Of a stretch of 36,365 nt of DNA, positions 1-36,365 are shown piece after piece. The notes beneath the pieces were generated by a model that did no database searches, was not told the origin of the DNA, and saw nothing but the letters and a program-made list of their open reading frames with translations. Each line of letters opens with the position of its first letter. Within the stretch, counting starts at the first letter, position 1. This stretch comes from Oscillospiraceae bacterium (GTDB lineage Bacteria > Bacillota > Clostridia > Oscillospirales > Ruminococcaceae): positions 1 through 36,365 of the forward strand of contig JAAVIF010000070.1 in NCBI GenBank assembly GCA_014799365.1. Reading direction: 5' to 3'. Both the position numbers and the translations under genes were made by a program.

Positions 1-17
1 GGCGGATATGTACGTTC

Positions 18-116
18 AATACAATATCTGAGGGAGCTTCGCTCCCTCACGCTGCCGCTATTGCGGCAGCGCATTTAAAAAGTAGCTTGTCTACTTTTTA
101 AATGGATATTAGTATT
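18..116. repeat. Element J: three abutting perfect hairpins enclosed by an outer stem (cloverleaf)
   Basis: Outer AATACAATATC (18-28)/GATATTAGTATT (105-116); TGAGGGAGC/GCTCCCTCA (29-49); CGCTGCCGC/GCGGCAGCG (50-71); CATTTAAAAAGTAG/CTACTTTTTAAATG (72-104). Confidence 0.85.
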
Positions 117-224
117 ATTAGTGAATCGCTGTGAAAGTTACTTTCATAGATTAAGACAATGTTTCTTGAAAAATCTTACATGTTTTTAAAAATTTTTTTG
201 GAAATTTGCCGTATTATTAAAATC

Positions 225-28515: not shown

Positions 28516-29670
28516 ACGGCAGGCGAGGATAAAACCGAAAAGGCCACCCCGAAAAAACGCCGAGATATGCGCGAAAAAGAAGGCATGGCACTTCAAAGCA
28601 ACGAGGTAATGCTTGCAATATCGGTGCTTGCCACGTTTCTGTCCCTGCGGGTTTTGGGCGGATATATGCTAAGCACGTTGGGCGATGTGCTGACCTCCTA
28701 TCTGGGCAGCGTGGGCAAGGACTTTGAATTCAATATAGAGTTCATTCAGCGCAACGCTTTGGAGATATTAAAATGCGGTATTCTTATAATCGGACCCGTG
28801 GCCGTGATCATCATGGCGGCGGTGGTTATAACGGTTATGGCGCAGACAAGAGGTTTGTTCAACACCAAGGCATTACGGCCGAAGTTTTCCAGATTGAGCC
28901 CAATACAAGGAGCGAAGCGGCTTTTTTCGGCACAGGCTATTGTGGGAGTTATAAAGGGAATCGTTGAGCTTACCATAATAGGAATAATCACCTATACGCA
29001 GATACAATCGCGTCTTGCCGATTTTGCTTTAATGCCTGACATGGAGCCTATACAATCGATACACTACATAGCCAAATCGATTTTTGATATAGTAATGCTT
29101 ATCTTTATAGTGCTTGCCTTTGTGGCGGCGGCGGACTTTATTTTCCAATGGTGGCAGTTTGAGAAAAAGCTCAAGATGTCAAAGCAGGAGGTAAAGGACG
29201 AGTATAAGCAGATCGAAGGCGACCCTCAGATAAAAAGCAAGATAAAGCAAAAGCAGCGCGAAATATCACAGCGCAGAATGATGCAGGAGGTTCCCACCTC
29301 GGACGTAGTAGTAAGAAACCCCACGCACTATGCAGTCGCGCTCAAGTATGAATCAAAGGACGCCTTCAGCGCGCCCCGCGTAGTAGCAAAGGGACAGGAC
29401 GCCTTGGCACTTAAGATAGTGAAAATTGCCGAGGACAACAATGTTTATATAACCGAAAACCGACCTCTTGCGCGCAGTCTTTACGATAACGTAAAGTTGG
29501 GCGCGGAGATACCTCCCGAAATGTATAACGCGGTGGCGTTGGTACTTAAGGAGATGTTTGCCGTTAAAGGCATCAAGCCTGTTTTCAACCGTGCCGTACC
29601 CGATCAGAGGGGCAGAATGGTAAGGCAAAGAAAGAAGCTTATAAGACAGGAGCATACCAATCCATTTTAA
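28516..29670 (+). CDS. flhB: Flagellar export apparatus protein FlhB (start uncertain: ACG at 28516, or TTG at 28468)
   Basis: AGEDKTEKATPKKRRDMREKEGM N-terminus; VVVRNPTHYAVALKYE (NPTH autocleavage motif); GGGGGG six nt before ACG. Confidence 0.92.
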   Translation, partial: TAGEDKTEKATPKKRRDMREKEGMALQSNEVMLAISVLATFLSLRVLGGYMLSTLGDVLTSYLGSVGKDFEFNIEFIQRNALEILKCGILIIGPVAVIIMAAVVITVMAQTRGLFNTKALRPKFSRLSPIQGAKRLFSAQAIVGVIKGIVELTIIGIITYTQIQSRLADFALMPDMEPIQSIHYIAKSIFDIVMLIFIVLAFVAAADFIFQWWQFEKKLKMSKQEVKDEYKQIEGDPQIKSKIKQKQREISQRRMMQEVPTSDVVVRNPTHYAVALKYESKDAFSAPRVVAKGQDALALKIVKIAEDNNVYITENRPLARSLYDNVKLGAEIPPEMYNAVALVLKEMFAVKGIKPVFNRAVPDQRGRMVRQRKKLIRQEHTNPF

Positions 29671-29753
29671 ACTGACATAATATGCACAGTTTAAAAATGG
29701 ATTGCACCCTAAACGCTAATCCCACAGCTTTGACAGGGATTAGTATTAGATAC
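29654..29753 (-). repeat. Element F: two-hairpin element at the flhB/flhA junction
   Basis: AATCCATTTTAAACTG (29659-29674)/CAGTTTAAAAATGGATT (29687-29703), linker GCACCCTAAACGC (29704-29716), CTAATCCC (29716-29723)/GGGATTAG (29736-29743), end TATTAGATAC. Confidence 0.92.
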
Positions 29754-34480: not shown

Positions 34481-34493
34481 GGTTTTGACCTTT

Positions 34494-34554
34494 AATACCG
34501 ATCCCATTTTAAACTGACGCAATGATCACAGTCGTAAAGGGATCAGTATAATAC
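34494..34554. repeat. Element G: solo-hairpin derivative between flgG and cheC
   Basis: AATACCGATCCCATTTTAAACTG ... CAGTCGTAAAGGGATCAGTATAATAC; shares ATTTTAAACTG arm and GTATAATAC end, no linker. Confidence 0.7.
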
Positions 34555-34583: not shown

Positions 34584-35207
34584 ATGCCACTTGAAAAATA
34601 TGAGGATCTGACAGATATTCATCTCGATGTGCTTAAGGAAGTGGGAAATATCGGATCGGGCAATGCCGTTGCCGCACTTTCCACCTTGATAAATAAAAAT
34701 GTTGAGATCGATATGCCGAACATAAGCATTGTTAGATTCCAGGAGGCGACCGACTTTTCGGGAGGCGCGGAAAAAATCATGGCTGGCGTTATGTCCAGAA
34801 TGGCGGGCGGCATAGAGGGCATGATCCTTCTCCTTATGGACAAGGATTTTGTAAATACGCTTGTTAGTGTATTTTTCAACCAGGAGGTCCACGGTCTTTT
34901 GGACTTGGACGACGAGAAAATTTCCGCTTTATCCGAGGTGGGCAATATACTTTGCGGTACATATGTTTCCGCTATCGGACAGATGACGGGAATCGATGTA
35001 AAATTAGAGTCCCCCTGCTTCCAGGTCGATATGGCGGGCGCGCTTATGAGTGTTCCCGTTATCGAGTTCGGCGAGGTGGGAGACAAAATCCTTTATATAG
35101 ATAAACGTTTAGTTATAGACGGACAGTGTATGAACGCCGAGATATTCCTTATCCCGACGATAGATTCTTTGGAAAAAATAATGAAAGAGCTTGGAATAGA
35201 TGTCTAA
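34584..35207 (+). CDS. cheC: CheY-P phosphatase CheC
   Basis: DVLKEVGNIGSGNAVAALSTLINKNVEIDMP; ALSEVGNILCGTYVSAIGQMTG. Confidence 0.95.
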   Translation: MPLEKYEDLTDIHLDVLKEVGNIGSGNAVAALSTLINKNVEIDMPNISIVRFQEATDFSGGAEKIMAGVMSRMAGGIEGMILLLMDKDFVNTLVSVFFNQEVHGLLDLDDEKISALSEVGNILCGTYVSAIGQMTGIDVKLESPCFQVDMAGALMSVPVIEFGEVGDKILYIDKRLVIDGQCMNAEIFLIPTIDSLEKIMKELGIDV

Positions 35208-35306
35208 CTAATATCGGTTTAAAAAGTGGATAAAATGGCTTTTTAAACCAATATTAGTGCTTAGGGTATAATCTCAACTTAAAAAGGTCAGAGCCTTTTC
35301 AAGTTG
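35207..35306 (+). repeat. Element H: two-hairpin element between cheC and cheD
   Basis: ACTAATATCGGTTTAAAAAG (35207-35226)/CTTTTTAAACCAATATTAGT (35239-35258), linker GTGCTTAGGGTA, CAACTTAAAAAGG (35275-35287)/CCTTTTCAAGTTG (35294-35306). Confidence 0.92.
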
Positions 35307-36249: not shown

Positions 36250-36365
36250 ACTAATACTAATATCGGTTTAAAAAGTGGATAAAATGGCTTTTTAAACCGA
36301 TATTAGTGCTTAGGGTGTAACTCTGTTTTGATTGTAGACTTTGTTCTATTTTGTCTACAATCAAA
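36250..36365 (+). repeat. Element I: two-hairpin element downstream of cheD, reaching the window end
   Basis: ACTAATATCGGTTTAAAAAG (36256-36275)/CTTTTTAAACCGATATTAGT (36288-36307) perfect 20 bp, linker GTGCTTAGGGTG, TTTGATTGTAGAC (36327-36339)/GTCTACAATCAAA (36353-36365) perfect 13 bp. Confidence 0.93.

Follow-up and report, generated by a model that had tools for sequence, protein, structure and literature searches.

A genus-restricted, MITE-like repeat with a twin-cloverleaf fold at a contig edge of an Oscillospiraceae genome

Several described systems resemble the repeat reported here. Bacterial MITEs are short, non-coding elements with terminal inverted repeats and a short target duplication, and they occur in many dispersed, near-identical intergenic copies. 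The IS1031 subgroup of the bacterial IS5 elements has a TNA target. Duplications of 3 bp are also made by PIF/Harbinger elements (TWA), by NuwaII (TNA) and by bacterial IS5 (ANT) (PMC4482050). The bcr1/bcr repeats of the Bacillus cereus group are genus-restricted, chromosomal sequences of 100–400 bp with features of mobile elements, TTTAT direct repeats and no identified enzyme, and for bcr1 a conserved structure has been predicted (PMC2267715). REPINs, REP doublets moved by the Y1 enzyme RAYT, place two palindromic units around a spacer in many intergenic copies, and their folding in single-stranded DNA has been proposed (PMC3116915).

The element described here lies at the left edge of the window, by which we mean the whole 36,365-nucleotide contig that was analysed (JAAVIF010000070.1). 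It shares the general features of MITEs, yet differs from them in having two cloverleaves of three hairpins in tandem, with a fold that is kept although the sequence is replaced, and in that no parent insertion sequence was found with four Pfam families and in 805 kb of the host. Like the bcr repeats it is confined to one genus; it is set apart from them by description, having TTA/TNA duplications and a twin cloverleaf, and its flanks show TTA with variable neighbours and no TTTAT direct repeats. Compared with REPINs, it is much larger, carries three hairpins per unit, is associated with TNA duplication and resides in a host assembly in which no Y1 gene was found. It has the 3-bp duplication of PIF/Harbinger and IS5-type elements, whereas its terminal repeats begin TACTAAT and no associated transposase was found. 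No described element of twin-cloverleaf design was found among the open-access papers searched. We conclude that the element is MITE-like and unusual in architecture; its mobility, its structure and its restriction to one genus are well supported.

Anatomy and fold of the element

Folding of window positions 18–116, as DNA and as RNA, reproduced what the initial annotation had proposed, namely three directly contiguous hairpins (29–49, 50–71 and 72–104) closed by an outer stem (18–28/105–116), in which one bulged base is consistent with arms of 11 and 12 nt. Against a background of dinucleotide shuffles, the minimum free energy was −40.8 kcal/mol for DNA (shuffles −13.5 ± 2.2; z = −12.2) and −62 for RNA (shuffles −32.3 ± 3.2; z = −9.3). 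None of the 200 shuffles folded as well in either case, bearing out the view that such a four-way junction is unlikely by chance; structured homologous copies are plentiful.

Matches at contig termini nearly always kept the right flank, indicating that the repeat extends to the left of the window. Complete copies indeed run on for 78 nt further leftward, taking in another cloverleaf of three hairpins and the opposite terminal repeat. They define an element of 192 bp plus a 3-bp TTA duplication (195 nt; family I), of which window positions 1–117 are nt 79–195, window position 1 being element position 79 (Table 1). Its two tandem cloverleaves, each an outer stem with three hairpins, are separated by a conserved spacer. 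The order in complete copies is TTA, TACTAATATCC, hairpin 1 (TTTGGACAG..), hairpin 2 (CCTTCGG..), hairpin 3 (CCGCC..GGCGG), GGATATGTA, CGTTC, AATACAATATC, hairpins 4, 5 and 6, GATATTAGTA and TTA, with TACTAATATC on the left and GATATTAGTA on the right as terminal inverted repeats. The hairpins leave no room for a gene, and the element is non-coding.

The resemblance noted earlier between the outer stem with the TTTAAAAAG arm and smaller elements is genuine for window positions 35205–35271 and 36252–36365, which, read on the minus strand, both start with TAA and TACTAATATC followed by the TTTAAAAAG hairpin, one T of the end being lost in the 35205 copy. The two GC-rich hairpins had been taken for an insert into this simpler core; both are, however, constant in the two-cloverleaf element, whose topology is old in the genus, so that the difference from the simpler elements may reflect either gain or loss. 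The earlier interpretation thus stands for the non-chance fold and the match to smaller elements, and is not supported in the form proposed for the inserted hairpins.

Table 1. Coordinates of repeat features in the window
Feature	Position	Strand	Basis
Family I, right-hand 117 nt (nt 79–195)	1..117	+	Alignment with complete copies L033, L036, L037 and others
First cloverleaf outer stem, 3' arm GGATATGTA; 5' arm and hairpins outside the window	4..12	+	Complete copies, pair counts
Inter-cloverleaf spacer GTACGTTCAATACA, nearly invariant in closer carriers	10..23	+	Alignment A1
Second cloverleaf outer stem, 5' arm	18..28	+	Fold; pairs with 105–116
Hairpin 4 (loop: TTC in this copy, GAA in others)	29..49	+	Fold, loop comparison
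Hairpin 5 (loop: TATT in this copy, AATA in one other)	50..71	+	Fold, loop comparison
Hairpin 6, TTTAAAAAG arm	72..104	+	Fold, pair counts
Right terminal inverted repeat GATATTAGTA, also outer-stem 3' arm	105..114	+	Agrees with TACTAATATC at the left end in complete copies
TTA target duplication, right copy	115..117	+	Flank counts; orthologous empty site with single TTA
Family II element adjoining the stop of the CheC-like gene: left unit, spacer and a degenerate right unit	35205..35271	+	Sequence comparison
Family II element with TAA end, cut by window edge	36252..36365	+	Sequence comparison

Copies, target sites and related families

When window positions 1–140 were compared by BLAST with the host assembly (2.69 Mb, 100 contigs, 86.5% complete), at least 40 places, of 116 candidates, were scored, so the segment is far from unique; most matches were 97–100% identical over nt 1–117. 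Left-half copies of family I likewise occupy at least 40 places. By hand count, about 48 of the 200 host contig ends fall in a family I element, which therefore probably caused many of the assembly breaks, the one at the window's left edge among them; in practical terms, family I accounts for about one quarter of host contig ends. The left end of the present contig lies inside family I and its right end inside a family II element (see below).

A structure-aware search with covariance model R1 detected the twin cloverleaf in 14 of the 71 genomes of the genus, and a 20-mer including the spacer, scanned against genome contigs from 84,980 species, matched five MAGs of the genus. Copies in genome G014 are about 70% identical and keep the two-times-three-hairpin plan. 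The 195-nt DNA query gave no match in the searched genomes from other genera of the order, the element had none in plasmid and phage collections, and a spacer 19-mer had none in the viral contigs scanned. One record titled Bacteroides sp. (JAMPHV010000008.1; L050, genome G007) carries the genus-restricted elements; its title is probably a mislabel, as genome placement puts the record in the window's genus.

Among distinct family I copies, TTA flanks 49 of 50 on the left and 44 of 47 on the right, and the copies without it look like mis-assigned positions or decayed ends. Empty sites were sought by joining the flanks of copies in genome G015 and comparing them with the host, and the reverse comparison was also made. 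An orthologous host site that lacks a G015 copy carries a single TTA (...GTTTTTTCT TTA TTTTAACACAAAGC...; L104 vs L211), indicating insertion by 3-bp duplication. For a host copy, G015 has a length-exact empty site that is partly N (L027 vs L259), and the reverse comparison gave several further, diverged empty sites in which the triplet itself is not resolved.

The ends TACTAAT/ATTAGTA are common to family I and to a simpler family of one or two hairpins at about 150–190 sites (family II), which duplicates TNA; its duplications matching left to right are TAA (23), TTA (4) and TGA (1). With two mismatches allowed, the family II spacer TTAGTGNTTAGGGTGNAA gave 97 forward and 89 reverse matches, compared with 24 in a control. 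Where family II elements are nested in family I or in one another, they duplicate TGA (L042), TAA (L044) or TTA (L130) of the invaded repeat. One-hairpin elements with TACTAAT/ATTAGTA ends are also present. Together, the shared ends and TNA duplications point to a superfamily of non-coding, TNA-duplicating elements of rising complexity. Unlike family II, family I uses TTA only, so for family I taken by itself the TTA at one end may be the element's own. The relative G032 (98% complete) holds about 102 family II sites and only two weak family I matches, so the two families spread independently.

Three family II elements built of two units around TTAGTGCTTAGGGTGTAA, or around a variant of this spacer, lie in the window (35205–35271, 36252–36365 and about 29655–29748, minus strand), the last two being cut by or close to gene boundaries. 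Single-hairpin elements or remnants with TACYRAT-type ends lie at 34493–34551, with TAA at both flanks, and at about 252–314. A 163-bp element on host contig C50 (L220:8595–8757), with ends TTATACTAATTC...TTTAGTATTA and a GC-rich interior, folds as a single long imperfect hairpin, unlike the other classes, and is possibly the remnant of a larger element.

Family I copies are intergenic, and the orientation of neighbouring genes is near random (left, 29 plus and 23 minus; right, 34 minus and 22 plus). This lack of a strong orientation bias led us to reject a cis-regulatory role. Preferred insertion at stop codons was likewise set aside, the 6 of 51 copies that lie in phase directly at the stop of a long frame being judged not special. 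The window copy adjoins a ParA-type gene region, and the remainder of the contig is a flagellar/chemotaxis cluster (FliF, FliK, FlhA, CheC, CheD). Several family I copies directly follow hairpins with T tracts that resemble rho-independent terminators (left flanks of L046 and L043; L020 and L042).

Conservation and evolution of the fold

In 19 diverse copies, a structure of 79 mutually compatible pairs was paired in 95.6% of cells, compared with 38–44% when the partners were slid. Changes on both sides affected 25 of the 79 pairs (4–6 in slid controls) and 128 cells (6–13 slid), counts that are not independent events because the copies are related by descent. A hand-corrected alignment, which counts one G in two pairs, gave 1465 of 1516 cells as Watson-Crick; in it, 28 pairs occur as two or more Watson-Crick types, versus 1–5 when slid. 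Very diverged copies in genomes G024, G067, G079 and G084 keep the two-times-three-hairpin topology. Several diverged copies have entirely different stem sequences with ends and spacer core still recognisable, and some are decayed and fold only partly. The outer stems, whose arms are three hairpins apart, also covary. Compensatory change has preserved the fold across wide sequence divergence within the genus. We discarded a rule of joint change in all four stem arms, which is true of most carriers and fails in G079 and G024, where the stems of the two cloverleaves differ.

The 50 near-identical host copies show 28 differences from their consensus, 18 of them in the 38 unpaired positions and 10 in the 157 paired positions. 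All 10 stem changes, a small number, are one-sided and none is compensated, suggesting that compensation accumulates as lineages diverge and not within a set of fresh copies, which would be seen if only copies capable of folding become sources.

In five of the six hairpins the loop is found either way round over an intact stem. This is the signature of template switching, for which loop inversion and the creation of compensatory changes are both documented (PMC8794818). The loop of a host terminator next to one copy is likewise inverted from one species to another (L046 vs L275, the G015 orthologue). Template switching therefore seems general here, and the perfection of the hairpins may be partly mutational. 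At stem positions of the window strand, G-T outnumbers A-C by 14 to 4, a weak hint that this strand is the folding one, uninformative as to RNA or single-stranded DNA.

The mobilising enzyme and competing explanations

Searches with PF01609, PF01797, PF13359 and PF13586, together with end-pair scans of draft assemblies, found no autonomous partner, and when 805 kb of the host was scanned for paired ends, no transposase was found enclosed by them. Y1_Tnp was found neither in the host assembly (86.5% complete) nor in the draft genomes G015, G073, G014, G079 and G084; such genes are present in G060, G088 and G032, with a fragment in G007, and the element's ends do not lie around them. Nor do these ends flank the DDE_Tnp_4 and DDE_Tnp_1_2 genes of G007, G032 and the host, or the PF13359 and PF13586 loci in relatives. 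The PF01609 match sits in what we take, from reading the protein, to be an IS256-type gene. Open reading frames between two elements at L053 and L120 were rejected as candidates, since the elements on either side are separate ones and the frames do not resemble transposases. In G007, two pieces of a DDE_Tnp_4 gene (L183, L184) lie beside an unrelated repeat (GCAAGGAAACCGATAGACGGTTAACTCC, CCTATGACGATAGGCGGTTAAATATT) that is present more than once. Draft assemblies tend to lose multi-copy elements, so the absence of a mobiliser from them is not proof.

Taken as a whole, the segment is probably the right half of a 192-bp, gene-free, non-autonomous MITE-like element that is mobilised in trans and whose folded strand is relevant to its movement. 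The shared TACTAAT ends would be used by an enzyme acting in trans, which would make 3-nt staggered cuts at TNA and would probably come from an element that these draft assemblies lack. The twin cloverleaf would be formed by one strand, for which single-stranded DNA at replication or transposition is the likeliest state, and we infer that this fold is what the transposition enzyme recognises. Only copies that fold well would keep spreading, such that source copies hold their pairing and dead copies drift, while template switching in the hairpins during replication would flip loops and may help to re-perfect the arms. To go further and propose a class of transposable element, with a folded twin cloverleaf as substrate, an undescribed structure-recognising enzyme, 3-bp TNA duplications and source copies selected for the fold, is a tentative step that we consider unlikely to hold in full.

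The main rival for the covariation is that template switching re-copies the arms and inverts the loops without selection, making the perfect hairpins largely mutational and the element an ordinary palindrome-rich MITE. The two loop orientations over intact stems, the flipped terminator loop and the documented products of template switching (PMC8794818) all fit this account, which we regard as possible, if somewhat unlikely: stem changes in the 50 young copies are uniformly one-sided, albeit in small numbers, the outer stems covary despite three hairpins between their arms, and the two-times-three-hairpin plan persists with its exact junctions in very diverged copies. Such maintenance may also act alongside selection. 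A different route of movement, similar to that of IS200/IS605, REPINs or PATEs, would have a Y1 (HUH) enzyme act on the folded strand, with TTA serving as target and element end instead of being a true duplication. Two palindromic units around a spacer recall REPINs (PMC3116915), and a bulged base in the stems, the strand-specific TTA of family I and the Y1_Tnp genes of some relatives are compatible with it. We nonetheless find it decidedly improbable, because family II, with the same ends, duplicates a varying TNA target, which is unexpected for HUH insertion, and family I shows TTA on both sides of the element and a single TTA when the site is empty; moreover, Y1_Tnp was not found in the host and draft genomes named above, and the Y1 loci elsewhere are without the element's ends.

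A structured non-coding or cis-regulatory RNA (attenuator, stabiliser or sRNA gene), spread as a repeat through that function, would account for the strong RNA fold, the compensatory changes in the stems and the excess of G-T over A-C (14 vs 4) on one strand. Its chances appear slim, given the near-random orientation of neighbouring genes, the dozens of near-identical copies at unrelated genes, carriage by just 14 of 71 genomes of the genus and an Rfam search in which no family scored above the gathering threshold. That the segment is a cluster of rho-independent terminators is barely credible: the hairpins are GC-rich and several copies adjoin host terminators (as in the left flanks of L046 and L043), but the terminator scan (5 sites versus 2.7 expected in 2 kb) scored hairpin 29–49 alone within the segment, on the minus strand and with a poor T tail. 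The GC-rich hairpins do not each have a T run, and precise ends with a target duplication are at odds with such a cluster.

Returning to the proposed trans-mobilised, fold-dependent element, few mobile repeats give such clean evidence of a multi-junction fold that is kept while the sequence is replaced, and here that evidence is accompanied by empty sites and loop inversions. The genus thus provides a natural test of whether a transposition system can recognise DNA by its structure and not by its sequence, and of how far template switching alone maintains hairpins.
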